DNA of 64,000 nt from Cyclobacteriaceae bacterium (GTDB lineage: Bacteria; Bacteroidota; Bacteroidia; Cytophagales; Cyclobacteriaceae). The notes beneath the pieces are model-generated. The model made no database searches. It was not told the DNA's origin and saw only the letters and a list, made by a program, of their open reading frames with translations. The stretch lies in assembly GCA_027533395.1 (NCBI GenBank), contig JAPZUF010000016.1, positions 1 through 64,000 of the forward strand. The letters run 5' to 3'. Shown in pieces: positions 4,671-24,594 of the stretch. The number at the start of each line of letters is the position of its first letter. Positions within the stretch are counted from its first letter, which is position 1. A program made the translations under genes and the position numbers.

Positions 4671-4740
4671 CGGAAATATTTGGCAATAATTGGAAATATT
4701 TGGCAATAAATGGAAATAATTGGAAGTTTTTGGATTTCCA
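4671..4740. repeat. 10-bp-period direct repeat array, about seven units
   Basis: Seven consecutive decamers (starting at 4671, 4681, 4691, 4701, 4711, 4721, 4731) follow the pattern TGGNAATAWT, the last two degenerate. A 20-bp higher-order unit, GGAAATATTTGGCAATAAWT, occurs twice (4672 and 4692). The exact 10-bp period places every copy on the same face of the helix. It lies between the HTH gene and the first viral gene, so it may be an operator array, an iteron-like origin or an architectural protein site. Confidence 0.7.
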
Positions 4741-4767
4741 TTTTTTCACTCTGCGCACTTTGCGCGC

Positions 4768-9120: not shown

Positions 9121-9146
9121 ATCAATTTTCTTTTCATCTATTCAAG

Positions 9147-9178
9147 TAGTCTGACTTCACGGTCAGACTGCTTTTAAA
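9147..9178 (+). terminator. Intrinsic terminator after the capsid candidate
   Basis: AGTCTGAC (9148-9155) pairs with GTCAGACT (9162-9169) around a 6-nt loop, followed by a T-rich tract (CTTTTAAATTTTT). It is one of the few real gaps in an otherwise overlapping operon. Confidence 0.75.
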
Positions 9179-9188
9179 TTTTTAAACC

Positions 9189-9554
9189 ATGAAGGTAAAA
9201 TACTTAACAGAAGAAGTAGTTCATAACGCTGGTACAACGGCAGGAACATACGATAAAGAAATTGATCCTGATACCAATCTCGATTTAATTGATGGCGTAC
9301 AAATTCATGAAATCAGCGATGGTGGCATTAACTCGTTTAATGTTGGTATCGAAGATAAGAATGCAGTGTATTGTAGTCTTGTTCACAAAAACGATTACAT
9401 CTCGTCTATTGCTTCACCGATTAACGATCGTTACAAGCAAGTTTTGATTCCAGTAATTAAAGGAAACAAGATCCGCATCAAAACAAACATTCCTGCCCTG
9501 CTAACAAGTGAATTGCGCTATCAAATTGTATTTCGTCACAAAAGCAAAAGTTAA
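9189..9554 (+). CDS. Small beta-sandwich virion protein candidate, 121 aa
   Basis: Predicted to be almost all beta: LIDGVQIHEISDGG, FNVGIEDKNAVYCSLVH, YKQVLIPVIKGNKIRIKT and a terminal strand LRYQIVFRHK. The N-terminus begins MKVKYLTEEVVHNAGTTAG and has no signal peptide. Gene position directly after the 203-aa protein suggests a minor or second capsid protein, like the paired single-jelly-roll proteins of some membrane phages. Function is unproven. Confidence 0.45.
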   Translation: MKVKYLTEEVVHNAGTTAGTYDKEIDPDTNLDLIDGVQIHEISDGGINSFNVGIEDKNAVYCSLVHKNDYISSIASPINDRYKQVLIPVIKGNKIRIKTNIPALLTSELRYQIVFRHKSKS

Positions 9555-9560: not shown

Positions 9561-9845
9561 ATGAAAGATTTGGTTCGCAAGCGCAGACCTGATGCTGTAA
9601 GGTTATCAGGTAAAGATGAAGTAATCAATACAAGCATTAACGAGTGTATTGATTTTACCATCGTAAACGCTGGAAGCGAAACCATTTACTACGGCTTTAG
9701 TAGCGAAACAAAACCCGACATACCCATCGAACCAGGTGAATCTGCTCCGTGGCCTTTGTACAGGCCATGCGAAGTGTGGGATGGCAAAGTCTATATCAAA
9801 TTTGAAGCAAATGGAAGCATAGCCTTAGTACTAAAAACAGTTTAA
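9561..9845 (+). CDS. Small beta-domain protein, 94 aa
   Basis: A compact all-beta protein: ECIDFTIVNAGSETIYYGFS, IPIEPGESAPWPLYRPCEVW and KVYIKFEANGSIALVL. The pattern (strand, IPIEPGES turn, strand) is typical of small phage head or neck decoration domains. It starts six bases after the preceding stop and ends two bases before the next start, so it is translated as part of the same set. No enzyme motif. Confidence 0.45.
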   Translation: MKDLVRKRRPDAVRLSGKDEVINTSINECIDFTIVNAGSETIYYGFSSETKPDIPIEPGESAPWPLYRPCEVWDGKVYIKFEANGSIALVLKTV

Positions 9846-9847: not shown

Positions 9848-10864
9848 ATGCCGGGGGGAATCGTTAAATCTTACAAAGACAGGGTTGTAGATAGTATACC
9901 TGAACGTGACCGAATCGCGGCACGTTGGAATAAAAGCAATTGGGGACAAGGTGTAATTGTGCTTAATGCCTATGCTCATTATCCTGATGTTGATCAAGGT
10001 GATCCCACAGTTTTAACAGCTTGTCAAGCTTACTACAAATTTACTTCAAATGGTTTTATTAAAATCGCTGAAGGCGAAAGTCTTGACCAGACACTTAATC
10101 CATTATATACTGGAGCAAGCCCTGCTACTATTGCACTTGGTGGCATTACACCTGGTACTGAATTGCAAGGAAGAACTTTAGTAAACATCATAGAACAAGC
10201 ACTAGTAGTTTATCAACAACCTACCTTTTCTGCATTTAGTGTTAACGGTCAACCTATAGTAGTTGAAGTTGGCTCATCATTTAGTGCAGGTTTAAAAACA
10301 TTTACTTGGAGTACAACCAATACAAATAATGTTAAGCCAAATTCCATTTCAATTTTCAATCAAACATTAGGAACCATTTTGTTAAATGCTTTTCCCAACA
10401 ATGGTAACGCACAATTCAATTTTCCTAATCAATATGTTTTGAATAATGAAGAACAAACACTTGTCTTTAATATTCAAGGGGAAAATACACAAAATCAAAA
10501 ATTTGCTAGAAACTTTACTATAACAGCCAACTATCTTCGATTTTTTGGTTGCCCACAAAACACTCCCACACAAGGGCAACACGTAAGGCAACTCGGCAAC
10601 CAAACATTTGGCAATAATTTTACGATACCAATACCGCAAGGAAGTACAATCATTGCATTTGCATACGAAGCAAATCGACCAAACATTAGCAATGCAAGTG
10701 TAAAATATGTAGAAGGCTTTAATGCTAATGTAGGTAATACATTTGCACAAACTATAATGAGTGTTGCAGATCCTTCAGGAGCCATGCACAATTATAAAGT
10801 TTATATCGCTACACTAGGTGCACCCTATCTATCTTCAGCAACTTATCAAGTAACCATTCCATAA
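9848..10864 (+). CDS. Fibre/spike-like virion protein, 338 aa
   Basis: The central part (about 125-240) has a segment I associate with Bacteroidota phage structural proteins: PTFSAFSVNGQPIVVEVGSS, then TFTWSTTNTNNVKPNSISI. Asn, Thr, Gln and Ser are abundant throughout, as in adhesive fibres. The N-terminal 90 residues (KDRVVDSIPERDRIAARWN) may be the attachment domain. The next two genes are also surface-type proteins, so this is probably the first of a receptor-binding cassette. Confidence 0.65.
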   Translation: MPGGIVKSYKDRVVDSIPERDRIAARWNKSNWGQGVIVLNAYAHYPDVDQGDPTVLTACQAYYKFTSNGFIKIAEGESLDQTLNPLYTGASPATIALGGITPGTELQGRTLVNIIEQALVVYQQPTFSAFSVNGQPIVVEVGSSFSAGLKTFTWSTTNTNNVKPNSISIFNQTLGTILLNAFPNNGNAQFNFPNQYVLNNEEQTLVFNIQGENTQNQKFARNFTITANYLRFFGCPQNTPTQGQHVRQLGNQTFGNNFTIPIPQGSTIIAFAYEANRPNISNASVKYVEGFNANVGNTFAQTIMSVADPSGAMHNYKVYIATLGAPYLSSATYQVTIP

Positions 10865-10865
10865 A

Positions 10866-11888
10866 ATGTCAGCATTAGGATTCCCATTTGGTTTTAGAGT
10901 TGCAGGTGCGCAGCCCCTTGATGAAAAGTACGGACCATACATTTCTGTTGCCGAAGCTATTCAATCTGTTTTACCTGGTGAAAGATACATTGGTTTAACA
11001 GTAAACGTTGCAGGTGTAGAATATTGGTGGAAAGATGGCGTTACCGATTTTGATTTAATTAAAAAAAGTTCGGCATCTGGATTAGCTGAAGTTTTGATTG
11101 ATAATAATGATGGAGGTAATCAACAGATTAAGAATGTAGGAAACCCAACTGAGTTACAAGATGTAGATACATTAGCAGCTCGCAATGAAGCTATTAGCAA
11201 CGCTATAGACGCTTTAAAAGAAAATGTTCCTGCACAAGGTAATACACTTGCTAAACTTTATACACTCATCACAGCAATTGGCAGACCTCGTGGTGTATGG
11301 GATGCAAGTAACAATACTGTTCCTTCATCGGTAGATAATCAGGCAGGAGATTTTTGGAGAATAAGTGTTGGCGGAACTCTTGATAATTTACTTTCTGGTT
11401 CTGGTATAGTTAAACCTGGCGATATCTTATTTGCTGATGAAGACGGAGCAACAAACAAAAATCAGTTCTATTGTATTCAAAGCAATGTAGATCAAGCAAC
11501 AAATTTAGCTTTAGGTCTTGTAAAACTGTATACTGATTTAGTTGAAGCTAATACAGACGGTACAGTAACACAAAGTGTAATTAAAAATGCGATAGAGGGA
11601 ACAACCTGGACTCCACTTCAGCTCGGTAATGTTGACTACAACTATGCAATTCCTTTTGACATAAAAAGATTTATCACCATCCATTTTACTGCAAGTATAA
11701 TTCTATCACAGAATGTTATAAATGGAAAATTATTGATGCCTGTAGTTATTAAAGGATCTGGTATGGAACCAACATTCGATGCTTCTTTTAAAAGAATAGG
11801 TGGTATATGGAGCAATCTACTATCGAATTATATAAGACTAATCAGAATTTCTGAAAATGAAGTTCATTACGAAATCTATCAGTTATGA
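10866..11888 (+). CDS. Fibre/spike-like virion protein, 340 aa
   Basis: The N-terminus contains the module FPFGFRVAGAQPLDEKYGPY, then AIQSVLPGERYIGLTV and EYWWKDGVTDFDLIKK. I recognise this module from the N-terminal region of Bacteroidota prophage fibre proteins. A helical stretch at about 95-135 could trimerise, and the rest is beta-rich. Starts one base after the previous stop and its stop overlaps the next start (ATGA), so translation is coupled. Confidence 0.65.
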   Translation: MSALGFPFGFRVAGAQPLDEKYGPYISVAEAIQSVLPGERYIGLTVNVAGVEYWWKDGVTDFDLIKKSSASGLAEVLIDNNDGGNQQIKNVGNPTELQDVDTLAARNEAISNAIDALKENVPAQGNTLAKLYTLITAIGRPRGVWDASNNTVPSSVDNQAGDFWRISVGGTLDNLLSGSGIVKPGDILFADEDGATNKNQFYCIQSNVDQATNLALGLVKLYTDLVEANTDGTVTQSVIKNAIEGTTWTPLQLGNVDYNYAIPFDIKRFITIHFTASIILSQNVINGKLLMPVVIKGSGMEPTFDASFKRIGGIWSNLLSNYIRLIRISENEVHYEIYQL

Positions 11889-13273
11889 AATGGACAAAAC
11901 AAGGAAATTGGTATGTTGATAGTTTCTATGGAAATGATGTTACAGGCACTGGAACAAAATTAAATCCATTTAAAACAATAACAAAAGCACAACAAGCATC
12001 AAGCAACAATCACACGATAATCTGCTCTGGCATTTTTTCCGAAGTAGTTCCACCAGGTAAACAATTATATTTTGAAGGTGATGGCCTTTGTATATGTACA
12101 GGTTTGGCTTTAACCATACCAGGTTCTATAATGTTCCAGTCCCATGCTTACCTATCAATAAAGGATTTTACATTTTATAAATTTCAAGGAAACTTCTTTG
12201 CACTTGCCATGACAAGTGCTGGATTAAATAATGCTTATAATTGTCAATTCTATTTCTGTAATATAGGAATTGCCTCTGGTGGTGGTACTTCTTCAAATTA
12301 TAATAATTGTATTTTCTACGAAACGTTGTTAGGATCTAATACCGTTGGAATGATCTTAACCTTTCAAAATAATACAGTTGTTCGTTGTGGCGGCCTACTT
12401 GGTGGAAGCTCAGGTTTAATTATTGGATCTGTTTGTACCAATAATCACTTCGAAGAATGTGAAACTTTAACGATTAATTTACCTGTAAACAAACCAGTAA
12501 ATTCTGAATTTGATTACAATACTATAATCGGGACAGTGGTTATAGGTGGTTCCGCCAAAGCACAGGCTGGGCAAGTTGCTCCATCATCAGCAAATACGAT
12601 AACACTTTATGGAAGTGGCACACCATATCAACAAAATGGTAAAGGACACTTAACAAAAGCCATGCTTATCCCAACTGAACAGTTTTTAGTGACAAACAAT
12701 TTTAACGACATCAATTGGTACAAGTGCTGTTTCAGTTTAAAATCAGATTCGATAAATGCCGGAACAGGCAAAGGTGGCGCAAATATCGGAGCGAGAAATG
12801 TTGGTTATTTACTAAGTGCCAATACAATTTGGACTAACAGAAATGTATCATCAGTTAATAACCTTAATTATGATTTGTTATCCGATGAAATAATAAGAAT
12901 AAATGAACTATTACCAGGTACATTAGAAACAAATGAAATTGATTTAGGTGCAGTTATTACTTGCGACATAGCACAATTATCAGCGCAAATATTCGACCCA
13001 ACACTGTCAAGCATTAATATTTTGGGCAAAGTAGATTATAACGCTGATCCTCCTTTTGATAGTAGCATTGATCAAAAAACAGTATTTGACTTTGAACTTC
13101 AATATGGCACAACATCAGGAGCTTTAACAAACTGGAAAAAATTTGAATTCAATAAACCTGTAACCATAGATATAAATGGAAACGGAAATGCTGACGACAG
13201 TTATAATGTTGGAAATGGCATAAGAATTACTTGCAGATATATAAAGTTAAGAATCGCTTTAAGACCATTGTGA
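11885..13273 (+). CDS. Right-handed beta-helix (pectate-lyase-like) spike protein, 462 aa
   Basis: The N-terminus has the DUF1565-type sequence WYVDSFYGNDVTGTGTKLNP followed by FKTITKAQQAS, typical of right-handed beta-helix proteins. Many short Asn/Cys/Gly-rich turns follow (NNCIFYETLLG, FQNNTVVRCGG). Beta-helix domains in phages form tailspikes that bind or cut surface polysaccharide. The C-terminal 110 residues form a separate beta domain (FDFELQYGTTSGALTNWKKF). Its start overlaps the upstream stop and its stop overlaps the next ATG. Confidence 0.75.
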   Translation: MKWTKQGNWYVDSFYGNDVTGTGTKLNPFKTITKAQQASSNNHTIICSGIFSEVVPPGKQLYFEGDGLCICTGLALTIPGSIMFQSHAYLSIKDFTFYKFQGNFFALAMTSAGLNNAYNCQFYFCNIGIASGGGTSSNYNNCIFYETLLGSNTVGMILTFQNNTVVRCGGLLGGSSGLIIGSVCTNNHFEECETLTINLPVNKPVNSEFDYNTIIGTVVIGGSAKAQAGQVAPSSANTITLYGSGTPYQQNGKGHLTKAMLIPTEQFLVTNNFNDINWYKCCFSLKSDSINAGTGKGGANIGARNVGYLLSANTIWTNRNVSSVNNLNYDLLSDEIIRINELLPGTLETNEIDLGAVITCDIAQLSAQIFDPTLSSINILGKVDYNADPPFDSSIDQKTVFDFELQYGTTSGALTNWKKFEFNKPVTIDINGNGNADDSYNVGNGIRITCRYIKLRIALRPL

Positions 13274-13522: not shown

Positions 13523-14374
13523 ATGACCGATCTACTCAACTTTGCAAACCGCGACAGACGAAAAGTAACGTTAGGCTACAAGCTTAATAACGGTAAAATC
13601 GTGCGTGTATATCGCAAGCTCGATGGACATGATGCGGAAAGCATCAAGAAAAACATAGAGCAATTGTTTGAGCATGGTTGCAACGAAGTGTTAGCAGAAG
13701 TATATCGACCAAACGGTTCTGCCTATAAACTTACCCGAACCTTCATCGTACAAAAAAATGGAGAAGTAAGAAGTCTCGGCAATTTACCTAAACCTGCAAC
13801 CGATCTGTTTGAAAAAGAAACTCCCCCAATAAAAACTCCATCGCCCACTCCTACCAAAACCAATACTACCATGAACGATTGGAAAGAATATGCTTTAGCT
13901 GAAGAAAAAAATAAAGTTTCAAAACTTGAAAACGAAGTACGAAGGTTGTTGAATGAAAACAAATCGCTTGATGAACAAGTACGCCAATTCGAAAAAGACA
14001 TGATTAAAAAAGACTTCGAGTTGGAGAAATTAACCACACAAGTAAGTAGCAAATCGGGTTTAAGTGGTATTGTAGAGAAGATAAGTGAATCTGATAAAGC
14101 CATTGATGTATTGGCGGGCATCGCAGGAAGATTATTCAACATTGATACTCAAAATCAAGGACAAGCCTTACCACCAAATCAACAAGAGTATCAACCCAAA
14201 ACACAACAATACATACAAAACATTGGCGCTTGGTTAAACAAACAACCTGAAGAATTGCAAGATCAATTCTACCGCATGATATACCTCACCACCAACGACA
14301 AAGAAGTGAGCGCAACAATTTTAAAACTTATAAACATTTTAGAAAATGGCACAACCATCGCACGTTCAGCTTAA
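13523..14374 (+). CDS. Coiled-coil protein of the virus-like element, 283 aa
   Basis: Residues 1-90 form a small alpha/beta region (RKVTLGYKLNNGKIVRVYRK, then a strand-rich part). A Pro/Thr linker follows at about 100-117 (PIKTPSPTPTKTNTTMNDW). A coiled coil lies at about 120-180, with heptad leucines in KLENEVRRLLNENKSLDEQV. The C-terminal 80 residues are helical. No membrane segment. It resembles scaffolding- or assembly-type proteins by architecture only. It overlaps the next gene by 29 bases. Confidence 0.5.
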   Translation: MTDLLNFANRDRRKVTLGYKLNNGKIVRVYRKLDGHDAESIKKNIEQLFEHGCNEVLAEVYRPNGSAYKLTRTFIVQKNGEVRSLGNLPKPATDLFEKETPPIKTPSPTPTKTNTTMNDWKEYALAEEKNKVSKLENEVRRLLNENKSLDEQVRQFEKDMIKKDFELEKLTTQVSSKSGLSGIVEKISESDKAIDVLAGIAGRLFNIDTQNQGQALPPNQQEYQPKTQQYIQNIGAWLNKQPEELQDQFYRMIYLTTNDKEVSATILKLINILENGTTIARSA

Positions 14375-14600
14375 AAAAGGAAAACGCTACACCGCACAAT
14401 TTAGTCTGCCAGGCTTGTACCAACATGCTAGCAACGAAGATGTGCGCAAAGAATTAGAAAACTTCGGCTTTGTCATGGTAGAAGTGAAAGGCAAAGGCAA
14501 TAAGCGCGAAGCCACTGGCACCTGGCCGAAAGAAGATCAGCAAGTTGAAAAACCTGCACAAGTAACAGCATTGTACGAAGCTATACCCTCATTACTATGA
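14346..14600 (+). CDS. Small conserved-looking protein, 84 aa
   Basis: A short soluble protein with KKGKRYTAQFSLPGLYQHAS, a helix (VRKELENFGFVMVEV) and a Gly/Lys turn (KGKGNKREATGTW). The layout, strand-helix-strand with a basic loop, is like small virion or nucleic-acid-binding proteins, but no family is recognised. The start lies inside the preceding gene in another frame, and the stop overlaps the next ATG. Confidence 0.5.
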   Translation: MAQPSHVQLKKGKRYTAQFSLPGLYQHASNEDVRKELENFGFVMVEVKGKGNKREATGTWPKEDQQVEKPAQVTALYEAIPSLL

Positions 14601-15238
14601 TACTCGAATTACAAGGCTTGGGAGATAAAATAATCCCAAAAATTTATGACCAAAAAACAGGCAAGTTTGCTGACCCCAACACTTCACTTGCACATAAAGG
14701 AAAAGTAAAATGGGACTGTAATGATTGGGTGAAGTTTCATCAATCACTTGTTGAAGCTTTTGAGAAAGGTACATTTGCTAGTAAGATAAAATACAAGAAA
14801 CCTGAAGCTATTAAGCAAGCAAACAAAGTTTTTTCAGAGCACTTCAATAAACACAATGGCTGGCTATCACTTGAAGAACGTTGCGGATATAGCTATCAAT
14901 TTTCTACCTATATGGACTCTGTTGGTCTTAGTCATTTCATAACTCTTCCTGCAAAAGCGGTTAATGCAACTAGAAGAACTGTGATGAAGGTAATTGATTC
15001 CGGTGAAAAAATTTCTGCTAAAACAGCCGACACGCTAGTTAACACAGTAGATAACACAGGCAAAGCAATTGTTAATGTATCGGAAGGCGTAAGCAACATT
15101 TCTAATGTTGGTAAATACCTGGTTCCTGTTGCCATTGGTGGGGTCGTTCTTTTTGTTGGTGCATACGTCTATAAAAACTACATCAAACAAGACAAACAAT
15201 TTGCAGTTCCCACACCTGGTGGCATTGTTAAAGTATAA
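14597..15238 (+). CDS. Protein with a C-terminal membrane helix, 213 aa
   Basis: A soluble N-terminal part (about 1-110) with aromatic and lysine residues leads to a helical stalk (about 120-165, AKTADTLVNTVDNTGKAI). One membrane helix follows at about 173-191 (VPVAIGGVVLFVGAYVY) with a basic flank. Tail-anchored layout like three other proteins of this element. It precedes the muramidase gene by nine bases. Role unknown; a virion-membrane or DNA-delivery protein is a reasonable guess. Confidence 0.5.
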   Translation: MILELQGLGDKIIPKIYDQKTGKFADPNTSLAHKGKVKWDCNDWVKFHQSLVEAFEKGTFASKIKYKKPEAIKQANKVFSEHFNKHNGWLSLEERCGYSYQFSTYMDSVGLSHFITLPAKAVNATRRTVMKVIDSGEKISAKTADTLVNTVDNTGKAIVNVSEGVSNISNVGKYLVPVAIGGVVLFVGAYVYKNYIKQDKQFAVPTPGGIVKV

Positions 15239-15247
15239 ACCAACGTT

Positions 15248-15901
15248 ATGGCTAGTTTTTCTATTGCATATAAAACACACATTGAACCCAACGAAGGTGG
15301 TTATGCCAAACTACCACACGATAAAGGGGGAAGAACCTATGCGGGCATTGCAGAAAACTACAACAAGAGTTGGGAAGGTTGGCCGTATATAGATTTGCAA
15401 GAAATGAAATTAAAAGGCAAACCTGTTCCTAACAACACTAAATTTCCAGACCTTCAATTTCTTGTTACTAAGTTTTATGAAGATAGATGGAAAGCCAATC
15501 GCTTCAGTGAAATTAACAATCAAGATGTAGCCAATCTTTTGTTTGATTACCATGTGCATTCACAAAGCAATGCCATTAAAGCCATTCAGAAAATTGTTGG
15601 CGTAACCCCCGATGGCAAAATGGGATCGCAAACCATCCAGGCCATTAACAAAGCTAATCCTGCCATTGTACACGATGCTTTATTACAACAACGCAGAAAC
15701 TTTTTAGAAAAGGTAATCAACAATAATCCTGGTTACGAAAGTTTCAGAAAAGGATTTGCAGCTCGCTTAGCAAAGTTTCCGCAATTGGTAAAAGAAAATG
15801 CCTTGCCCTTAGGTTTGTTGGCAGCAGCTGCCGGCACTATCCTACTCGTAACCATCGCCAACAAAAAGAAAAAAGAAAACCAATACCAAACCGCAGTCTG
15901 A
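15248..15901 (+). CDS. GH108 muramidase with peptidoglycan-binding domain and C-terminal TM, 217 aa
   Basis: The N-terminal glycoside hydrolase 108 motif HIEPNEGGYAKLP contains the likely catalytic Glu16, followed by DKGGRTYAGIAENYN. Residues about 95-150 match the PG_binding_3 domain (LLFDYHVHSQSNAIKAIQK, VTPDGKMGSQTIQAIN). Phage enzymes of this family hydrolyse the glycan strand at exit or entry. Unusually, a hydrophobic helix at about 187-205 and a Lys-rich tail follow, so the enzyme is probably held in a membrane. With the amidase and the two membrane proteins downstream it forms a peptidoglycan-attack module. Confidence 0.85.
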   Translation: MASFSIAYKTHIEPNEGGYAKLPHDKGGRTYAGIAENYNKSWEGWPYIDLQEMKLKGKPVPNNTKFPDLQFLVTKFYEDRWKANRFSEINNQDVANLLFDYHVHSQSNAIKAIQKIVGVTPDGKMGSQTIQAINKANPAIVHDALLQQRRNFLEKVINNNPGYESFRKGFAARLAKFPQLVKENALPLGLLAAAAGTILLVTIANKKKKENQYQTAV

Positions 15902-15902
15902 T

Positions 15903-16163
15903 ATGGAATTAATAGATAAACAAATCATCAACGAAATACTGAAACAATCTTTTGTTGTTGTTTTACTCATCATCGTTGCTCGCACCATGTGGAGCTACAT
16001 CAAAGAAAAAAACAACATCATCAAAGAAAAGGATCATCAAATTCTTACTAATCAAAAAGAGTTAATGGATTTATATGGTCAGGCAGTTGAAAGTCAAAAT
16101 AAATTGACAAATGCCATCGATGAGTTAAGGAAAGATTTACACTTCATGAAAATTACAAAATGA
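15903..16163 (+). CDS. Small single-TM protein, possible holin/spanin-like, 86 aa
   Basis: A membrane helix at about 10-31 (EILKQSFVVVLLIIVARTMW) is followed by a charged coiled-coil-like tail (KEKNNIIKEKDHQ, then LYGQAVESQNKLTNAIDEL). This is the layout of many class III holins and inner-membrane spanins. It stands between the muramidase and the 3TM-holin-like gene and overlaps the latter by four bases. Confidence 0.5.
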   Translation: MELIDKQIINEILKQSFVVVLLIIVARTMWSYIKEKNNIIKEKDHQILTNQKELMDLYGQAVESQNKLTNAIDELRKDLHFMKITK

Positions 16164-16633
16164 GTTGGATTAAAAATTTATTCTCAGGCAAAGGTAAATC
16201 TTTAGCCGATACTTTGGTAAACGGATTAGACGAGATCATTACCAACAAAGAAGAACTGGCGCAAGTAAAATTATTGCTCGATAAGGAAACCCACCGCCAC
16301 ATGGAGCAACTCGAAGCCAACATCTTGCGCGAATACGAATTTGAAATTCAAGATCGAAGCAATGCTCGCAATCGCGAAATAGAAGTCATGCGTGGTGGTA
16401 GCAAAAATATTACACAAAATGTATTGGCATACATGGGCATCATTGCATTCTTCTATATGACTGGATACATCATTTCTCGTGGTTTAGGAGAAATGAGTGC
16501 GGAAGAGAGTTTCATCATTGGAAATCTCACAGGTTTAGCCGGAGCCATCGCTAAAGATATTTATAGTTACTATTTCGGTAGTTCTATTGGCAGCCGTAAC
16601 AAAGATGTTTTAATCGAAAAAAGAAATCGCTAA
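16160..16633 (+). CDS. 3TM-holin-like membrane protein, 157 aa
   Basis: Two to three hydrophobic helices lie at about 92-140, after a conserved-looking acidic/basic stretch (EFEIQDRSNARNREIEVMRG). That stretch is the type found before the helices in the 3TM holin family (HP1/GTA holins). Holins open the inner membrane so muramidase can reach the wall. It follows the muramidase and the 86-aa protein, and its ATG overlaps the previous stop. Confidence 0.7.
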   Translation: MSWIKNLFSGKGKSLADTLVNGLDEIITNKEELAQVKLLLDKETHRHMEQLEANILREYEFEIQDRSNARNREIEVMRGGSKNITQNVLAYMGIIAFFYMTGYIISRGLGEMSAEESFIIGNLTGLAGAIAKDIYSYYFGSSIGSRNKDVLIEKRNR

Positions 16634-16635
16634 TT

Positions 16636-19600
16636 GTGCGAACACAAGATTTTATACAAGCCATCACCCAAGACCTGGAGCAACAAACCAAACACAACAA
16701 AATAAGTTTGGAAAAGCTCGCAGCGAGTTATGGTATTGTCGATAAAAATCTTGTGAAAGAATTAACTGAACTAGCCATCGTACAAACAGCCCGAAAGCTA
16801 GCTCACCAATCGGGCAGTGTGGCAGAACGATTTCATAACATCGTTCAGCTATACGAAAGTCAGGTTAACCTTTCGCACCGAACCTCACAATCTGTTCTAT
16901 TGCAGCAGTACTCAACCCCCGCGCCCATCGCTTACCTGATGGGCGTGTACTGCGGCATAGAACATCCAGGCGAATACCTGGAGCCATCCGCAGGTAATGG
17001 TCTATTAACCATTGCAGGAAACGTTGCTCATTTTTCAGTCAATGAAATTGATACTGTAAGAAATCAAAACTTACTAACACAAGGCTACCGCGAAGTAACC
17101 AAACTTGATGCTACGCAAGTAATCAGAAATAAAGAATACGATGCCATTCTTACCAATCCTCCATTTGGCAGATTAAATGAACCAGAGGAGATAGATGGCT
17201 ATCTCATCAAAGACCTGGATCATCTGATGGCTATTCTTGCCATACAAAGTATGAAAGATGATGGTCGCGCTGCCATCATTATTGGTGGACATACCACATG
17301 GGACGCACACGGTCGTATTACCGCAGGTAAAAACAGAATTTTCTTCAACTATCTGCATAAGCATTTTAATGTAGAAGATACCATACTAATCGATGGTAAA
17401 AAACTTTACACACGACAAGGCACAGGTTTTCCGGTACGATTAATCTTGATTAACGGAAGAAAAAAAATTGCTGAAGGAGTTGCACCCTTGCGCAACGATG
17501 CTGATGTAGTAGTATCAACATTTCAAGAATTATTCAATCGTGTAACACAATTACTAAGCAGTTCAACATCCACTATGGATTTACAATTAAAATTAAAGCT
17601 GAAGGCAAAAGCCATTAAGTTGAAACTTGCCATGAACACCAACCTATTGGGAGTAAATGATGAAGAATTAGGAATGCCCTATCTCCCTGCATCGCAGTTG
17701 TGTAATAGTTTGCAAGTCGATACACCCGATAGTATGGGTTACGAAATTCATGCAGCCTTGCAAAAATTAAAACATAAAGTTGGTGCAATTGAAATATACG
17801 TTCAAAATAAATTAGGCTATCAGTCGCAAGATGAATTGTGCCAAGCCCTAAGTGCCGAGCAAGCAGATGCTGTTGCACTTGCCATTTATAACATCGAACA
17901 TCGCAACCAGGCGTTGATTGTTGGCGACCAAACAGGTATTGGTAAAGGTCGAATTGCGGCATCCATCATTCGCTATGGCGTTCAGCAAGGATTGAAGCCA
18001 ATCTTCATTACAGAAAAACCAAATCTATTCTCCGACATCTACCGCGATTTAAAAGCCATCGATAGCGAAAGCATCAAACCTTACATTGTTAATGCGCGAG
18101 ACAGTAAATCGCACATCAAAGATGAAGATGGTAATGTTGTATTTGAAGCGCTCGATGCCGATCAGCAAAAGAAGATTATCACCAGTGGCAAACTTCCTTC
18201 AGAGTTTAATTGCATCATGCTTACCTACTCACAAATTTCAGGTGGTGAAGTTAACCGTGCGGGCAACCTGGTGCGCAAATCACCCAAAGGCGAATGGGTA
18301 GAATTACAAGCCAATGGCAACATCGTTATTTTAGATGAAGCTCACAATGCCAGTGGCGATAGCAACACAGGCAAAGTATTGCAAGACATCGTGCGAAACA
18401 CCAAAGGCGTAACTTTTCTATCTGCCACTTTTGCAAAGCGACCAGATAACATGCCTATATATGCTTTAAAGACTGCCATCAGCGAAGCGAACATGAGCAA
18501 AAGCGATTTGATTGAAGGCATTGAAAAAGGTGGCGTTGCATTGCAAGAAGTGTTATCGGCACAACTCGTGCAACATGGGCAGATGATCCGCAGAGAAAGA
18601 AGTTATGAAGGCATCGAAGTCAATTACATAACCTTGGATGATAAAGCACAAGAACACCGTGCTATAAGCGATAACATCACCAATATCATTCGAGATATAA
18701 TTGCCTTCCAGAAAAAATACATAGATGGTGAAATAGAAGCCCTAGATGCTATCGCTGCCAAAACCAATACAGGTAGCGAAGTAGAAAAACGAAAAGGAAC
18801 AAAAGATGCCGGAGTAGATGCTACACCTTATTTCAGCAAAGTGTTTCAAGTGGTTAACCAAATGCTTTTTGCTATTAAAGCAGAAGCAGTTGCCGATCGC
18901 GCCATCATGCGTTTACGCGAAGGTAAAAAAGCCGTGATTGCCTTCAGCTCTACAATGGGTTCATTCCTCGAAAGCATGACCGATGCAGATGGAACACCCG
19001 CAGAAGATGGTAAGAAAATCAATGCCGACTTTGCTACTGTTTTACAAAAAGGTTTAGATGGCGTTTTGCGCTATACCGAACGTGGCGCAGATGGAAAATC
19101 AATTTATAAAATGATTGATGTAAATGAATTGTCTATCGAAGCGCAACAAGAATACAAAAGAATTGCTACCGATATTCAAAACATCAGCAGTGGTATTGTT
19201 ATCTCTCCTATTGATTTGGTGAAGCAACGTTTAACAGAAGCAGGTTATCGCGTGGCAGAAGTTACAGGTAGAAAATTATCCGTTGATTTAAAGTTTGAAA
19301 AACAAAGAACCATTGGCTTAGTGAAATCGCGCAAGCGCGAAAATGCGAACGATGCCTTCCGAAAATTTCAGAATATTGAAGTTGATGTTTTAATGATTAA
19401 CCAAAGTGGAAGCACTGGAGCAAGCGCGCATGCCATTCCAACTAAGGTTGTGCCGAAGCACCAGGTGAAGCAACGTGTGATGATATTGTTGCAAGCGGAA
19501 TTAGACATCAATACGGAAGTACAAAAGCGAGGAAGAATTAACCGCACCGGACAAATCTACAAACCTATCTACGACTATATGTTTTCTGCCATACCCGCAG

Positions 19601-21411
19601 AAAAAAGGTTGATGATGATGTTACAAAAGAAATTGAAATCGCTTGATGCTAATACAGCATCCAACCAAAAACAAAGCGAAGCCATTCTTTCGGTGGATGA
19701 TTTTCTCAATAAAATTGGTGATCGAATTGTTACGCAATACTTAACGGATAATCCTGAATTTAATGAAATGTTGGGAGATCCTATTAAACTCAATGATGCC
19801 GAATCAGACAATGGAAAATACGTTGTCATTGAAGATGCCGCACACCGTGTAAGTGGTCGTGTGGCAGTTTTACCTACAACCTTACAAGAGAAATTTTATA
19901 ATGATATTCTACAATTGTATCGCGATGAAGTTGAATACCTAAAACAAATTGATGAATACGATTTAGAAGTTGATGTTCTCAATTTGCAAGCTACTACCCT
20001 ATCTAAAGAAATTGTGATTGTTGGAAAAGGAGGATCCTCTGCCTTTGGTGATAATACTTATCTGGAGCAATGCGAAGTAAATTTATTGCGCAAGCCTTAC
20101 ACCGTTAACGAGCTTGATAATTTATACCTACAAGCTACGCAAGACAAATCGCCTGAAGCGATACAACAAGAATGGATACAAGCTTTGCAAAAATACTCGC
20201 AAACGCAAACACAAAAAGTTACCGAACAAATCGAGCAAGATTATATCGATCGAATGCTCAATATTCACCACGAAAAGAATTTTGCAAAACTCGATACTGA
20301 AGAACAAAAACAATTTTACGTCAATACACGCACAAAAGAATTGCAAGAAGCCAAAGCAGAGAAGCAACAAAAAGAACAACAGAAAATTACTAACCGTTTC
20401 GAAGCATTAGGCAACATTTTCAAATTCTTTTCTATCGGTCGTAAAATCTATTATCCCCTCGATATGGAAAACGCATCGAGTAATAAAAGCATAGCCGTTA
20501 GCCTGGGTATAAAAATAGATGCAAACAGCGAGAAAGCATTTGTACCTTCCAACATCAAATTAAGCATTGCTATTGCAAGTGCTAAAAAGCGCATCGACAT
20601 TCCTTTATCTAAAGTAAAAGACATCAATGCTATAATCGGTATCAGTGCGCAATTAAGTGATGTATCGTGGGATTTTGTAAAAGATGAATGGAGCAAAGCC
20701 ATAAAAGAAAATACCAACGACAGAGGTATTGCTTACATCGTTACCGGAAATTTATTGCAGAGTTATGGTAGCGATCAGTTTGCAAAAGGCAGATTGATTA
20801 GCTACACCACCAGCGATGGCAAAACACGAAAAGGAAGATTAATGCCCGATGGTTGGGAACAAGGCACGGCACAAAATGATAAACTCGTGAAAGTGCCGAT
20901 CAGCAAAGCGGTGAAAGTAATTGCAAGTCTTACCGCAGGTAAAAGCATTTCTACAGATGCTGATGTAACCATTGTTAAAACATACGATGATACATTTAAA
21001 ATGATGATACCGGCAGCAAAGTCTTCCGGTGGCGATTTGTATTTAGATGCACAACTTAACGAACTGATGGATACAGGTCGTTTCGATAAAATCAGCAACT
21101 ACATGACAGGCACTTTCCCTATGGAAAAACTGCAAACTGTTTGTGATACGCTTCAGCGAAATCACAATGCCAGTGTATCGCTAACACCATATCAACTCAA
21201 CTTGCTAAGTGATATAAACACTGAAGAAAAAGAAGAAGAATTTATCAGTCAAGAGTTGCAACAAAAAATTGAAGCAGAACGCGAAGCTAGAAATAATGCC
21301 TTACCCGAACCACCACTTCCTACACCTGCCTTTGATGAAGTACAAGCCCTTAAACTTCGATTGTCTTTAAAAGCAAAAGCCATCAAACTCAAACTTAAAC
21401 TTGCTGCATAA
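16636..21411 (+). CDS. DarB-like N6-methyltransferase / strawberry-notch helicase, 1591 aa
   Basis: A GTG start follows the previous stop by two bases. Residues about 90-280 form an N6-adenine methyltransferase domain: YLEPSAGNGLL (motif I, about 114) and TNPPFGRL (motif IV, about 173). A strawberry-notch type superfamily 2 helicase follows: VGDQTGIGKGRIA (Walker A, about 429), LDEAHNASG (about 566), GRINRTGQ (motif VI, about 966). This is the architecture of phage P1 DarB, which is packaged in the head and shields incoming DNA from type I restriction. A basic motif, LKAKAIKLKL, occurs at about 320-331 and again at the C-terminus. Could be delivered with the genome. Confidence 0.88.
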   Translation: MRTQDFIQAITQDLEQQTKHNKISLEKLAASYGIVDKNLVKELTELAIVQTARKLAHQSGSVAERFHNIVQLYESQVNLSHRTSQSVLLQQYSTPAPIAYLMGVYCGIEHPGEYLEPSAGNGLLTIAGNVAHFSVNEIDTVRNQNLLTQGYREVTKLDATQVIRNKEYDAILTNPPFGRLNEPEEIDGYLIKDLDHLMAILAIQSMKDDGRAAIIIGGHTTWDAHGRITAGKNRIFFNYLHKHFNVEDTILIDGKKLYTRQGTGFPVRLILINGRKKIAEGVAPLRNDADVVVSTFQELFNRVTQLLSSSTSTMDLQLKLKLKAKAIKLKLAMNTNLLGVNDEELGMPYLPASQLCNSLQVDTPDSMGYEIHAALQKLKHKVGAIEIYVQNKLGYQSQDELCQALSAEQADAVALAIYNIEHRNQALIVGDQTGIGKGRIAASIIRYGVQQGLKPIFITEKPNLFSDIYRDLKAIDSESIKPYIVNARDSKSHIKDEDGNVVFEALDADQQKKIITSGKLPSEFNCIMLTYSQISGGEVNRAGNLVRKSPKGEWVELQANGNIVILDEAHNASGDSNTGKVLQDIVRNTKGVTFLSATFAKRPDNMPIYALKTAISEANMSKSDLIEGIEKGGVALQEVLSAQLVQHGQMIRRERSYEGIEVNYITLDDKAQEHRAISDNITNIIRDIIAFQKKYIDGEIEALDAIAAKTNTGSEVEKRKGTKDAGVDATPYFSKVFQVVNQMLFAIKAEAVADRAIMRLREGKKAVIAFSSTMGSFLESMTDADGTPAEDGKKINADFATVLQKGLDGVLRYTERGADGKSIYKMIDVNELSIEAQQEYKRIATDIQNISSGIVISPIDLVKQRLTEAGYRVAEVTGRKLSVDLKFEKQRTIGLVKSRKRENANDAFRKFQNIEVDVLMINQSGSTGASAHAIPTKVVPKHQVKQRVMILLQAELDINTEVQKRGRINRTGQIYKPIYDYMFSAIPAEKRLMMMLQKKLKSLDANTASNQKQSEAILSVDDFLNKIGDRIVTQYLTDNPEFNEMLGDPIKLNDAESDNGKYVVIEDAAHRVSGRVAVLPTTLQEKFYNDILQLYRDEVEYLKQIDEYDLEVDVLNLQATTLSKEIVIVGKGGSSAFGDNTYLEQCEVNLLRKPYTVNELDNLYLQATQDKSPEAIQQEWIQALQKYSQTQTQKVTEQIEQDYIDRMLNIHHEKNFAKLDTEEQKQFYVNTRTKELQEAKAEKQQKEQQKITNRFEALGNIFKFFSIGRKIYYPLDMENASSNKSIAVSLGIKIDANSEKAFVPSNIKLSIAIASAKKRIDIPLSKVKDINAIIGISAQLSDVSWDFVKDEWSKAIKENTNDRGIAYIVTGNLLQSYGSDQFAKGRLISYTTSDGKTRKGRLMPDGWEQGTAQNDKLVKVPISKAVKVIASLTAGKSISTDADVTIVKTYDDTFKMMIPAAKSSGGDLYLDAQLNELMDTGRFDKISNYMTGTFPMEKLQTVCDTLQRNHNASVSLTPYQLNLLSDINTEEKEEEFISQELQQKIEAEREARNNALPEPPLPTPAFDEVQALKLRLSLKAKAIKLKLKLAA

Positions 21412-22142
21412 TGAACTTACAAGCTTATCAAAACCTTATCGAAAAAATTGGAGTTGATAATTTACCAACTCAACACCAAGATGCTTACGATTTAGTAAAA
21501 AATGGATCAGCCAATTTTTCTAACAACGACCAATGGAAAATGATGTTAGAAGATAATGACATCCGCGAGACTTATGAATTACACGTGGAAGAATTAAAGA
21601 AACTTCAAAGCGAAGAAAAGCCAGTAATGGAAGTATCGAGTAGAAAAGAATCTACAAAGACAAAGACTAAAGTAGCTAAACCTGAAAAAGAGAAGAAAGC
21701 TAGTCCGCTTAAAGTTTCAAAACCTAAACCTATCAAAACCAAAAAAATAGCGAAAGCGAAAAAAGTAAAAGTTGCCAAACCCAAAGCAACTAAAGCAAAA
21801 AAAGAATTGAAGTTTCCGGTTACCATTAAGCGATTTAGCAAAGAGTTACAGGTGATCAAACGTGTTGTAAACATGGATGAGAAAGAGAAAACACTACATT
21901 CACTCACACTCTTTCATCGCGATATAGAAAAATTACTTGGCACACAACCCGATCGCAAGCCAGTACTTAATGATATTTTTAATCGACTAACCGGAGTAAT
22001 TAAATCAGCAGAGAAAGCCAATGTTGAAAAAGTAAAAATTAATTTGAAAGATGATTTCAAAGAGAAATTGAAAGCTCAATTACTCCAGGTGAAACCAAAA
22101 ATGAAAGTTGAATACTTAGCCGGGACAGAAGGAAAAAAATAG
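21411..22142 (+). CDS. Lysine-rich protein following the DarB-like gene, 243 aa
   Basis: Between an acidic helical N-terminus (about 1-60) and a folded C-terminus (about 135-243) lies a stretch of Lys, Ala, Pro and Thr (about 62-130). It has repeats such as KPKPIKTKKIAKAKK and VAKPKATKAKK, resembling histone-H1-like tails. The protein could coat or condense the genome or bind DNA beside the DarB-like helicase. Its ATG overlaps the helicase stop by one base. Confidence 0.55.
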   Translation: MNLQAYQNLIEKIGVDNLPTQHQDAYDLVKNGSANFSNNDQWKMMLEDNDIRETYELHVEELKKLQSEEKPVMEVSSRKESTKTKTKVAKPEKEKKASPLKVSKPKPIKTKKIAKAKKVKVAKPKATKAKKELKFPVTIKRFSKELQVIKRVVNMDEKEKTLHSLTLFHRDIEKLLGTQPDRKPVLNDIFNRLTGVIKSAEKANVEKVKINLKDDFKEKLKAQLLQVKPKMKVEYLAGTEGKK

Positions 22143-22192
22143 ATGCCGATATACTGGTAAGCAGGGAAGTTATATCGGCACCGCGACCCACT

Positions 22193-22903
22193 ATGGTTGA
22201 TCTACCCCAACACGAAATAGAAAGTGTTACCAAGGTAAACCTTGCTCCTGCCCTGCATGGAGTTAGTCGTTTCGATGGCTTATTCAACAACATTGCCAAC
22301 ATCGATAAGCAAGTATCCAACACCTTTAAATTGAAAGGAGATTTAGGAAACTTTCTTGGCGATTTAGAAACTTATAAACTAGCCATCACACTAGAAGGCG
22401 ATCAAGGTGCAGGTAAAACACAATTGTCGTTTCAATTAGCAGATGGCTTTGCTGATATTGGTTATTCAGTTGGCATGTTTCAATTGGAAATTGGTGCGAA
22501 TAGCAACATCATCAAGCGAAACAGAGATCAATACATACAACCTAAAAACATAGGAAAGATTGCCATTACTGGAGAAGCGCCTGAAGGCATACGAACCATT
22601 CGCCAGTATGCACATCAATTCAATGTTATCATCATCGACTCCTGGACAAAACTTGATGTAGACAGTAGCGAGTTCGATCAATTGCGAAAAGACTACCCGG
22701 ACACTATTTGGATAGTTCTATTTCAACGTACTACTACCAACAAAATAAGAGGTGGAACCAAACCCTTGTACGATGCAGGTATCAACATCGAAGTTGTAAA
22801 AGCAGACGATACGTTTGTAAACAACTATGCCGTTGCAACTAAAAACCGATATGGTTTTACCGGAGTAAAATTCAACATCTACCAACGAAAAATTGTGAAT
22901 TAA
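22193..22903 (+). CDS. RecA/RadA-fold ATPase, 236 aa
   Basis: A P-loop GDQGAGKTQLSFQLA (about 68-82) and Walker B with NVIIIDSWTKL (about 145) are present. A sensor-like TTTNKIRGGTKPLYDAG follows (about 184), the pattern of RadA/DnaB-type RecA-fold ATPases. It lacks an extra zinc finger or Lon-like domain, so it is shorter than RadA. There is no large terminase in the element, so this is the only other candidate motor for replication or DNA packaging; that role is speculative. Start at the ATG at 22193: no ATG, GTG or TTG lies upstream in this frame after the nearest stop. Confidence 0.75.
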   Translation: MVDLPQHEIESVTKVNLAPALHGVSRFDGLFNNIANIDKQVSNTFKLKGDLGNFLGDLETYKLAITLEGDQGAGKTQLSFQLADGFADIGYSVGMFQLEIGANSNIIKRNRDQYIQPKNIGKIAITGEAPEGIRTIRQYAHQFNVIIIDSWTKLDVDSSEFDQLRKDYPDTIWIVLFQRTTTNKIRGGTKPLYDAGINIEVVKADDTFVNNYAVATKNRYGFTGVKFNIYQRKIVN

Positions 22904-22904
22904 T

Positions 22905-23246
22905 ATGTGCCAATGTAAAGAGAATTTAAATGGTTGCGGATGTGGCTGTAACACTTGCAACAAAACCAATAAGAAGAAAAAAGCAAGTCAACCAGGAGAA
23001 ACGAGCCAGGCTAATTTCATGCAACAAAGAAGTGTTGTAAAAAATGATAACGGAGGCTATACGAAAAAGTCGGAGGAATTTACTACCACAAGCGCCATGC
23101 TTACCAAACGCGAAGAAATACTAGAGCCTGAAGTAGAGGTAATTCCCAATGAAGAAACAACAAAAAGCAATACAACCGATTACACCTTGCTAGCAGGATT
23201 AGGATTAATGCTTGCAGGCACGATCATTAAAAAATTAAGAAGCTAA
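22905..23246 (+). CDS. Cysteine-rich, tail-anchored small protein, 113 aa
   Basis: Six cysteines in the first 18 residues (MCQCKENLNGCGCGCNTCNK) form a compact metal-binding or disulfide cluster. A lysine cluster and a long polar linker follow, then one hydrophobic helix at about 93-108 (LLAGLGLMLAGTIIKKL). Tail-anchored membrane protein. It is the last gene of the operon and its end overlaps the integrase end by 12 bases. No family recognised. Confidence 0.6.
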   Translation: MCQCKENLNGCGCGCNTCNKTNKKKKASQPGETSQANFMQQRSVVKNDNGGYTKKSEEFTTTSAMLTKREEILEPEVEVIPNEETTKSNTTDYTLLAGLGLMLAGTIIKKLRS

Positions 23247-24374
23247 TAAAAAGCCATCGAGTTTCTTCATGCTTTCATCTTTGTATTGCGCAGCAATTTT
23301 CGCATAGATTTCCGTTGTGGTAACAGAAGTATGCCCAAGCCAATCTCGCACGGTAATTAAATCTACACCAACCAACAAACAATGAATAGCAAAAGTATGT
23401 CGCGAGCAATGCCAGGTAATGTGTTTATAGATACCAACAGCTTCACAACAAATTTTCAATTCATTGTTAACTCGTGTGTTACTCAACTTTAGTTTGTGTT
23501 TCAAAACATAAGGCAGCAACTCTTGCGCTTGTGTGTTAAAAGGAATCAAAACAGTTTTGCCAGTCTTATTCGTTTTTAACTGAATGCGACCATCAACAAT
23601 ATGATCGGTGCTAAACTTTAGTTTATCGCCAAAGCGAATGCCAGTAAAGCAACAAAATAGAAAATGACGCAATGTATTTTGTTGCACGGCCGTCAACTTA
23701 TCGTGTGGTGAAAAAGCAATGTTGTATAACTTTTGCAACTCTTCCTTGGTGAGCCAATCCTTCACCACACTTTCTCTCTCCATTTTAAAATTCTCGAAGG
23801 GATTTCCCTTCGCTAAATTTTTCATTACATCCAGTCGATAAAACTTTTTGATGCACGCGAAATCCTGGTAATAACCATTCGGTTTCCTACCCTTCGAGAC
23901 AAGATGAAACTTATAAGCCGTTAGAAAATCAAAATTGATAGAATGAAACGGAATAGACTGTCGGTATTTCTGCAAAGCTTCCAGGCGCAACTTGTAATCG
24001 AAGTACGTCTTATAGCTGATTAGTGATTTTTGTGCCTTCAGTTCAGCAAAAGCAAAAGTGAGAAAATCTAAATCAGACTTATTTCTGAATTTAGCATCGA
24101 TCAGCTCAAAAGTTGGTTCGACACCACTATTCTTTATATCGATGATGATGTCATCGAGTAAAGTCATTTGTCTTTTGAAAAAAGCATTCAGTTTGATAGC
24201 ATTATCAGCACCACGCAAAACATTTCCGGTAGCATTATCGAAATGCTCAGGCTTCAGATATTTTTTTGTAGCGATAAATTTTCGTTCGCTACCTTTTGCA
24301 AGAACAAAGTAAACAGGACACAAACCATCCTTTCGTTTTTTGGAACGGTTTTGCCAGAGTCGAATGGCGATCAT
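23235..24374 (-). CDS. Tyrosine recombinase / integrase, 379 aa
   Basis: The N-terminal SAM-like arm-binding and core-binding regions (to about 200) precede the catalytic domain: first Arg in CFTGIRFGDKL, HxxR in ITWHCSRHTFA, histidine in WLGHTSVTTTEIYAKI with the nucleophilic Tyr near the end. This is a Bacteroidota-type phage/ICE integrase (CTnDOT-like in layout). It is read away from tRNA-Thr, with 147 bases between start and tRNA end, the usual position of an integrase beside its attachment site. It converges with the seventeen-gene operon. Confidence 0.95.
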   Translation of the reverse strand: MIAIRLWQNRSKKRKDGLCPVYFVLAKGSERKFIATKKYLKPEHFDNATGNVLRGADNAIKLNAFFKRQMTLLDDIIIDIKNSGVEPTFELIDAKFRNKSDLDFLTFAFAELKAQKSLISYKTYFDYKLRLEALQKYRQSIPFHSINFDFLTAYKFHLVSKGRKPNGYYQDFACIKKFYRLDVMKNLAKGNPFENFKMERESVVKDWLTKEELQKLYNIAFSPHDKLTAVQQNTLRHFLFCCFTGIRFGDKLKFSTDHIVDGRIQLKTNKTGKTVLIPFNTQAQELLPYVLKHKLKLSNTRVNNELKICCEAVGIYKHITWHCSRHTFAIHCLLVGVDLITVRDWLGHTSVTTTEIYAKIAAQYKDESMKKLDGFLLAS

Positions 24375-24512: not shown

Positions 24513-24521
24513 GATTTTGTG

Positions 24522-24594
<73 letters not shown>

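Follow-up and report, generated by a model that had tools for sequence, protein, structure and literature searches.

Known systems and their relation to the locus

Anti-restriction proteins that travel together with DNA are known from the heads of tailed phages and from conjugation. The present analysis concerns a gene for a large methyltransferase–helicase at positions 16636–21411 of a 64,000-nucleotide stretch of contig JAPZUF010000016.1 (assembly GCA_027533395.1, from a member of the Cyclobacteriaceae), this whole stretch being referred to below as the window; gene content and a predicted structure suggest that the gene belongs to an integrated element of a tailless virus family of Bacteroidota with a single jelly-roll capsid. 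One clear point of comparison is the DarB protein of phage P1, which, so far as the available text of the two sources goes, is a virion head protein (PMC9024508, PMC5512222) that is believed to enter the cell, and whose 30 N-terminal residues are enough to direct a reporter to the capsid (PMC9024508). In Pfam terms P1 DarB consists of N6_Mtase and SNF2-rel_dom. Both proteins carry an adenine methyltransferase N-terminal to a superfamily 2 (SF2) helicase-like module within one large chain, and their methyltransferases align, significance being confined to 139 amino acids (aa) of that domain (26% identity, pairwise expectation value (E) 3e-5). However, P1 DarB has an SNF2 helicase and an N-terminal targeting peptide, is 2255 aa long and comes from a tailed phage, whereas the window protein has a strawberry-notch helicase and a C-terminal tag, is 1591 aa long and comes from an element that is very probably tailless. 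The statement in a preliminary description of this DNA that the two proteins share the same plan is therefore correct as to the order, methyltransferase followed by SF2 helicase, but not as to the helicase class, since the SNF2-type helicase expected of a P1 DarB orthologue is not the one found here.

The other relevant description is that of the methylase–helicase dyad among polyvalent proteins by Iyer et al. in 2017 (PMC5512222), the available part of which mentions a strawberry-notch version in a few proteins, an N-terminal LPD36 domain for the DarB-type dyad, ArdC and metallopeptidase domains among polyvalent proteins, and a RadA/Sms domain in Bacteroidetes. The window protein shares this architecture: it has an N6-methyltransferase fold with the NPP(Y/F) motif (as NPPFG, together with a PHROG match; the Pfam matches are below cut-off) and, C-terminal to it, an SF2 helicase-like module (AAA_34 and Helicase_C_4), while ArdC and metallopeptidase domains also turn up in the corresponding gene slot of one relative (L037). 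Most phage cases in that text are tied to portal and terminase genes, whereas here one finds a jelly-roll operon, a shared tag and a partner protein, F04. An individual case is Bacteroides phage BS-TP4 (L004), where positions 1511–17686 encode a 5391-aa protein whose methyltransferase and strawberry-notch domains follow one another as they do here (34% identity); unlike the window gene it adjoins a portal gene, and its C-terminus is without the tag.

As to the capsid, Helvetiavirae carry a genome-packaging ATPase of the FtsK/HerA type. The capsid fold predicted for the window element resembles that of Sulfolobus polyhedral virus 1 (SPV1; Portogloboviridae) and of the vertical single jelly-roll viruses P23-77, SH1 and HCIV-1, and the absence of a recognised packaging ATPase is likewise shared with SPV1, which, in the part of the source available, is said to resemble an ancestral state of its lineage (PMC8812541). 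Unlike these viruses, the window element has a Bacteroidota host, lysins, an integrase and the DarB-type gene, and its capsid profile is without a sequence match in the PDB.

The DarB-type gene and its linkage to a capsid gene

The gene and its parts are as follows (position, strand, description, basis).

16636..21411 (+): DarB-type protein, 1591 aa; adenine methyltransferase, strawberry-notch SF2 helicase and C-terminal tag (Pfam, PHROGs, motifs)
16816..17535 (+): methyltransferase domain, aa 61–300, with motifs EPSAGNG and NPPFG (domain models, motifs)
17581..17634 (+): linker copy of the tag, aa 316–333, LQLKLKLKAKAIKLKLAM (sequence)
17806..20373 (+): strawberry-notch helicase region, aa 391–1246 (Pfam, domain models)
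21355..21408 (+): C-terminal tag, aa 1574–1591, LRLSLKAKAIKLKLKLAA; basic here, acidic in most relatives (sequence)

The single open frame begins with GTG, is free of internal stops, starts 2 bp downstream of a holin-like gene and ends in a stop codon that overlaps the start of the next gene. Two Pfam models pass their curated cut-offs, namely AAA_34 (aa 403–670, E 3e-22) and Helicase_C_4, the strawberry-notch C-terminal domain (aa 872–1112, E 2e-18); on the methyltransferase part Pfam gives only weak matches below cut-off (UPF0020 and MTS), and a PHROG of DNA methyltransferases matches with E 1.5e-7. The motifs are EPSAGNG (aa 116–122) and NPPFG (aa 174–178) on the methyltransferase side, followed by GDQTGIGKGR (aa 430–439), DEAH (aa 567–570) and QKRGRINRTGQ (aa 963–973). 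An intact protein joining a methyltransferase to a strawberry-notch helicase, as the preliminary description had it, is thus borne out. NCBIfam and PADLOC returned no match for it, no chain matched it in a PDB sequence search, and a locus search with this protein as sole query gave no relative in viral or genome contigs.

The association of such genes with the gene of the predicted capsid protein (family F01) was counted from both sides. Starting from the capsid, 50 handles of the 82 loci, in 49 F01-bearing records, were searched for DarB-type genes, and a match was found in 39 of the 49 records. Once the pieces of individual loci had been merged by hand, 53 DarB-type loci remained, of which 40 lie at most 15 kb from F01 (median 8.1 kb), 10 lie at 15–60 kb, and three have no F01 on the contig (a 335-aa fragment without F01, G549:C31, was left out and would make this four). 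Among the 82 loci, taken with flanks of up to 10 kb, 65 reach 8 kb downstream of F01, 16 are shorter and one has no F01 frame; downstream of F01 the 65 show a methyltransferase with helicase in 29 cases, a cut part of one in two, ArdC or another methyltransferase in three, a protein of family F33 in 17 and none of these in 14.

Starting from DarB alone, close relatives are uncommon (any match in 5 of 59 relatives' genomes, and in 3 of 395 genomes drawn from the phylum at E 1e-20), and the search yielded eight copies of at least 47% identity: the window itself, contig C24 of the same genome (G000), G003, G047, two in G107, G091 and plasmid pPP10. Seven of these eight have F01 nearby, the exception being G003. 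A more distant relative, G020 (37%), has no F01, and the tailed phage BS-TP4 comes from a collection without F01; plasmids near 30% identity lay outside the F01 search. In the tree the window protein groups with support (100/95) in a clade of 30 rows, every one of which bar the G003 row comes from a place with F01; G020 and, beyond it, BS-TP4 branch outside this clade, and FastTree gives the same order. Since the rows of the tree were mostly gathered through F01, the linkage of the clade to the capsid is in part a matter of sampling, for which the count from the DarB side, seven of eight, serves as the control. These results support the conclusion that the clade of the window protein occurs almost exclusively next to a jelly-roll capsid operon, and a placement confined to plasmid replication modules, which the preliminary description had named as telling against carriage in particles, is not what the tree shows.

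The two operons need not be adjacent: in large elements, such as those of G107 and contig C24, they point apart, with other genes in between. These two had been considered as capsid-less satellite elements, an idea that was rejected as F01 lies 27–35 kb from the DarB-type gene there, and only the G003 copy is without it. Genes resembling efflux pumps stand between or next to the capsid and DarB operons, perhaps as cargo, in G107:C3 177784–195403 and G003:C9 (L014 and L015); the label (resistance–nodulation–division type) comes from reading the sequence rather than from a family search.

What occupies the position of the DarB-type gene varies among relatives. RadC domains are fused to the DarB-type protein in L050 and L095; L037 has ArdC, metallopeptidase and methyltransferase domains (ArdcN E 9e-27, MPTase-PolyVal E 2e-32); L045 has an N6_Mtase gene followed by a separate SNF2 helicase; and nine elements have, directly before F04, a 284–289-aa protein without a helicase, which in L109, the one tested, is an adenine methyltransferase of the D12 type. 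All of these architectures include a methyltransferase. Domain models took the place of an initial protein cluster, "F02", in which several methyltransferase architectures had been lumped together.

The C-terminal tag and the F04 protein

All 30 complete DarB-type proteins (loci L154–L183, these being the ones returned with sequence out of the 53 loci, and some of them near-identical) end, behind a variable stretch, in a peptide of about 17 residues of the form LELEAEALALELELLAA, compared with a mean of 1.3 in 30 for shuffled 30-mers. A search of 2400 distinct complete proteins with the strict form of the pattern gave 39 matches, all to proteins longer than 1200 aa (shuffles: mean 1.4, maximum 5). 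A looser pattern was also tried and is not significant by itself (14 of 2564, against shuffles with mean 10.7 and maximum 23). The window protein and nine of the 30 have a further copy in the linker between methyltransferase and helicase (shuffle mean 0.8). In plasmid pPP10 the two enzymes are separate genes and each ends in the tag, as …RAKAIMILQKQLNL and …RAKAILILQAQVL, the former, on the 341-aa half, being matched by the loose pattern only and missed by the strict one. The tag also closes the SNF2-type proteins of L045 (…KAKALKLLQLQAQAELELAA) and L046 (…KAKALQLRRKRALALLKLAS). No such C-terminal tag was seen in the distant relatives L004, L017, L147–L149 and L151–L153 (L150 is cut), nor at the enzyme ends of L035, L036 and L037. 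From its sequence the tag looks like a docking signal; that it is modular, being carried by enzymes of different families and separately by both halves of a split enzyme, is put forward tentatively, and jointly with the cargo-loading reading discussed below.

The gene directly after the DarB-type gene encodes F04, which has a conserved N-terminal domain of about 65 residues; most F04 proteins seen in full continue into a RecA/RadA-like ATPase, and in the window and in pPP10 these are two separate genes. In the window a basic tag (+7) is paired with an acidic N-terminus on the next protein; in most relatives, by contrast, the tag is acidic and the N-domain close to neutral. Across 38 rows the charges of tag and N-domain give Spearman rho values of -0.41, -0.43 and -0.53 for the first 45, 55 and 65 residues, against controls of 0.05 (body of the DarB-type protein) and -0.22 (rest of the next protein). 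Among 21 dereplicated elements, four basic tags face charges over the first 55 residues (N55) of -5, -3, -6 and -5, and 17 acidic tags face charges of -2 to +2; the basic-tag case L162 is nested in an acidic clade, and the window and pPP10 are basal. The nine elements with a D12-type slot have another basic end peptide, mostly …SKLKRLKFAA, and in seven of them (not dereplicated) the N55 charge is -5 to -2. This correlation, noticed after the fact, suggests that the tag may bind the N-domain of F04.

The N-domain model did not match the F04 proteins of L035–L038, L092 and L115. It did weakly match (E 8e-4 to 3e-10) proteins of 222–257 aa encoded upstream of the F04 and DarB-type genes in L108, L111, L112, L114, L117 and L075, which may possibly be a second carrier of the dock.

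The predicted capsid protein and its family

The product of 8509–9120 gave an AlphaFold model with a predicted local distance difference test score (pLDDT) of 71.5 and a predicted template modelling score (pTM) of 0.73. Its top PDB match, and the only one below 0.001, is SPV1 chain 6oj0_A (Foldseek E 6e-4, prob 1.00), for which structural comparison gives Z 9.3 over 154 aligned residues at a root-mean-square deviation of 4.0, the next-best Z being 6.4; lower rows contain capsid proteins of P23-77 (VP17), SH1, HCIV-1, PBCV-1 and PRD1 along with unrelated jelly-roll proteins. SPV1 VP4 was also found in a library of virus structures (E 5.7e-3, prob 1.00). The single jelly-roll major capsid protein that marks the vertical single jelly-roll viruses is thus present here as a predicted model. 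F10, the next gene after the capsid gene in relatives, is modelled with pLDDT 91.1 as a jelly-roll fold, its Z scores being 9.7 with a Faustovirus capsid protein, 9.4 with a monooxygenase, 8.7 with HHIV-2 and 8.2 with SPV1 6oj0_Z; the corresponding window product (9189–9554) matches F10 weakly (E 0.012).

Sequence searches with the 203-aa capsid protein found it in 10 of 146 genomes, its own included, and no relative in viral contigs when it was used alone. The alignment of 15 rows had no stretch conserved enough for scanning, so a profile of a five-row subset was used; this gave 108 relatives in the genome collection, of which 80 were kept, and two in IMG/VR. No chain in the PDB was matched by the profile, and a family member used as query had no match in 50,697 phage records. 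The capsid-bearing records that are named include Cyclobacteriaceae, Chitinophagaceae and other Bacteroidota. Cultured carriers of the family are, for example, Ohtaekwangia koreensis DSM 25262, where a DarB-type gene stands some 41 kb from the capsid operon, and Puia dinghuensis. Across the 82 loci, where some contigs are short, the recurring neighbours are F01 (81), F00 (78), F07 (77), F09 (77), F10 (76), F06 (71), F13 (71), F03 (70), F05 (68) and F08 (55). The gene order is common to some 80 Bacteroidota loci, and at the level of predicted structure these results are good evidence for a tailless jelly-roll virus.

Two records, G531:C1 (JAIBBC010000001.1) and G532:C1 (CP058703.1), have F01 genes every 48–51 kb or so (at 1519754, 1568214, 1619258 and 1669234, and at 2967239, 3018589 and 3069024), as if elements of about 50 kb stood in tandem. 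Plasmid pPP10 of Persicobacter psychrovividus (L003) has the capsid operon and the split DarB-type gene together with replication and partition genes of its own, and is probably an extrachromosomal form of the family. The open-access literature, in the parts available, yielded no paper on the element family or on the tag; subscription papers lay outside this search, which leaves novelty unproven. Marine elements with other capsid candidates are described in the available part of PMC12324425.

Gene content and borders of the window element

The remaining features of the element are these.

4720..5433 (+): amidase-type lysin (phrog_822 amidase E 3e-37; Pfam Amidase_2 below cut-off)
5430..7952 (+): F00, an 840-aa protein whose N-terminus is transglutaminase-like (a DUF553 match at E 6.5e-4 in relative L066 falls below cut-off)
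7972..8457 (+): 161-aa protein in the F09 position, with hydrophobic stretches (sequence, position)
8509..9120 (+): F01, predicted single jelly-roll capsid protein, 203 aa (structure prediction, profile searches)
9144..9173 (+): 13-pair terminator-like stem directly after the capsid gene (pattern match only)
9189..9554 (+): 121-aa protein placed where relatives have F10, a second jelly-roll protein (weak link)
9561..9845 (+): 94-aa protein, F13/F28 position (position only)
9848..13273 (+): three variable genes, 338, 340 and 462 aa, in a spike-like position (putative spike role)
13523..14374 (+): F16, 283 aa, coiled-coil-type matches (Pfam, gene clusters)
14597..15238 (+): 213-aa protein with C-terminal hydrophobic stretch (sequence)
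15248..15901 (+): GH108 endolysin, 217 aa (Pfam, PHROGs)
16160..16633 (+): 157-aa holin-like membrane protein immediately before the DarB-type gene (phrog_1544 E 1.6e-10, which carries no function; putative holin)
21411..22142 (+): 243-aa protein with the F04 N-domain and an acidic N-terminus, to which the tag is proposed to dock (N-domain model E 3e-5)
22193..22903 (+): RecA/RadA-like P-loop ATPase, 236 aa, with Walker A and a conserved KNR motif (profile matches; the likeness to RadA is in part assumed)
23235..24374 (-): tyrosine integrase (Pfam)
24521..24594 (-): tRNA-Thr adjoining the integrase, likely attachment site (position)

Scans with Pfam and PHROGs took in 20 open reading frames (ORFs) from 4720 to 24374, with ORF 13231–13515 not among them, and found no portal, terminase, HK97 capsid or type IV secretion system gene. 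PHROGs likewise gave none of the Caudoviricetes hallmarks (portal, large terminase, HK97 capsid) for 10 proteins of the relatives L066 and L095, and the relaxase and secretion ATPases of conjugative elements were absent from the same 20 ORFs by Pfam; the relative pPP10 is typed as non-mobilizable. The sole tail label comes from the 462-aa protein, which matches phrog_4577 over 29 residues (E 1.8e-5). The element is very probably tailless, and the preliminary description's remark that it is without a tailed-phage module holds for the 20 ORFs scanned, with a predicted jelly-roll capsid protein now to be added. The product of 22193–22903 was considered as a packaging ATPase and rejected as such, its profile matching RecA chains, best on a tandem RecA fusion (E 4e-11) and on single RecA chains at E 0.26 and weaker.

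On the right the element is marked by the integrase and tRNA-Thr; no repeat of at least 13 bp was found tying this region (24371–24680) to the rest of the window, and the contig starts at base 1 of the window. A pattern scan found no terminator-like site on the + strand between 9173 and 23747, and the genes from 9189 to 23246 may therefore form one transcript. To the left of the element, in a stretch of low GC content, lies an SLFN_AlbA_2 gene (1923–2810, -).

Possible roles of the enzyme

The best explanation of the whole, which we hold as a working proposal with somewhat less than an even chance of being right, is that a jelly-roll provirus packs a tag-docked methyltransferase–translocase that would protect entering DNA from restriction. 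The DarB-type protein, encoded after the structural and lysis genes, would combine an adenine methyltransferase with an SF2 helicase that translocates along DNA; its amphipathic C-terminal tag would dock on the N-terminal domain of F04, and the complex would be loaded with the genome into the particle, the tag, by analogy with P1 DarB, either loading the enzyme or docking it with F04. The complex would then enter a new cell without a tail and shield the incoming DNA from restriction, translocating along it and methylating or shielding sites. Delivery in the particle is plausible but unproven; the plausibility comes from P1 DarB, which reaches the capsid by means of a short terminal peptide. 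Restriction does concern these elements, as a sister element in the same genome (L012, on G000:C24 at about 27.4–37.5 kb) carries type I restriction genes (Methylase_S, HsdM/N6_Mtase and an EcoEI-type R subunit) between its capsid and DarB operons; a ThiF/E1-like gene next to a DUF4132/DUF7737 gene lies between the same operons. Extended to the family, the reading would be that a lineage of tailless jelly-roll proviruses widespread in Bacteroidota loads a methyltransferase–translocase–RadA complex by means of a C-terminal cargo tag, amounting to tailless protein delivery with anti-restriction included, and this wider form is the more doubtful.

Several of the results weigh against this proposal. 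Thirty of the 80 F01 loci (80 rather than 82 rows, two second pieces of F01 having been dropped) have no DarB-type gene within 60 kb on the contig, many contigs being short, and G003 has a very similar DarB operon in an assembly without F01. The capsid model is of moderate confidence, with a query TM-score to SPV1 of 0.46; best Z scores of 7 to 8 are usual for the comparison tool where there is no true match; and the nine matches below 0.001 in the virus-structure library are a mixture of capsid and unnamed proteins. No genome-packaging ATPase was recognised in the element, only the RecA-like one. Nine elements without a helicase imply that translocation is not essential to the slot. As to docking, rho drops to -0.32 when 75 residues are taken; the chance of the 4/17 charge split, 1.7e-4 if the rows were independent, applies to rows that are related and so are not; L045, one of the four basic-tag cases, counts by position only, its next protein not being matched by the N-domain model; two of the nine D12-slot elements, with N55 charges of 0 and +1, do not fit; and the tag could serve the F04 complex only.

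The main rival is that the enzyme is not packaged but made late, methylating progeny genomes in the producing cell before encapsidation together with its RadA-like partner, and the tag would then merely be a dock for F04. This is nearly as good an explanation, because a D12-type enzyme, which would do the same without a helicase, can fill the slot, and it too falls appreciably short of an even chance. The exchanges seen in the slot (DarB-type, N6_Mtase with SNF2 in L045, D12-type) keep an adenine methyltransferase and not one particular helicase, and the DarB-type gene follows the lysis genes with no terminator-like site between. However, P1 DarB, the analogue, is found in the virion and carries a terminal peptide that targets it to the capsid, and a large translocase with a tag in 30 of 30 copies would be costly for plain modification of progeny. 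An enzyme that serves replication or recombination of the element after entry, with the RadA-like partner and with no role in restriction, seems unlikely: the RecA/RadA-like neighbour, the RadC domain fused in L050 and L095, and the 10 of 53 DarB-type genes that lie 15–43 kb from the capsid gene (the mapped ones with a repressor and a recombinase or integrase) would all suit it, but in compact elements, the window included, the gene follows lysis genes, and the slot of L037 holds ArdC-type antirestriction domains. Still less probable is a structural operon that encodes a domesticated or non-viral shell, whether like a gene-transfer agent or a nanocompartment, with the enzyme as cargo or accessory. 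Several copies per genome, units about 50 kb apart, and the yield of just two contigs from IMG/VR and none from the phage collection, are in keeping with such a shell; the integrase by a tRNA gene, the lysins and the holin-like gene, identical F01 proteins in different named genomes and the plasmid form pPP10 all speak for a virus instead.

If the packaged-enzyme proposal is true and the protein does enter with the genome, then a different route of delivery must exist, since a tailless virus has no ejection tube such as tailed phages possess. The C-terminal tag on DarB-type proteins, as read from their sequences, is a new observation, and the shared tag could be a small, portable cargo signal. 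Finally, the capsid finding suggests that SPV1-type capsids have bacterial relatives, which bears on the origin of the vertical jelly-roll viruses.

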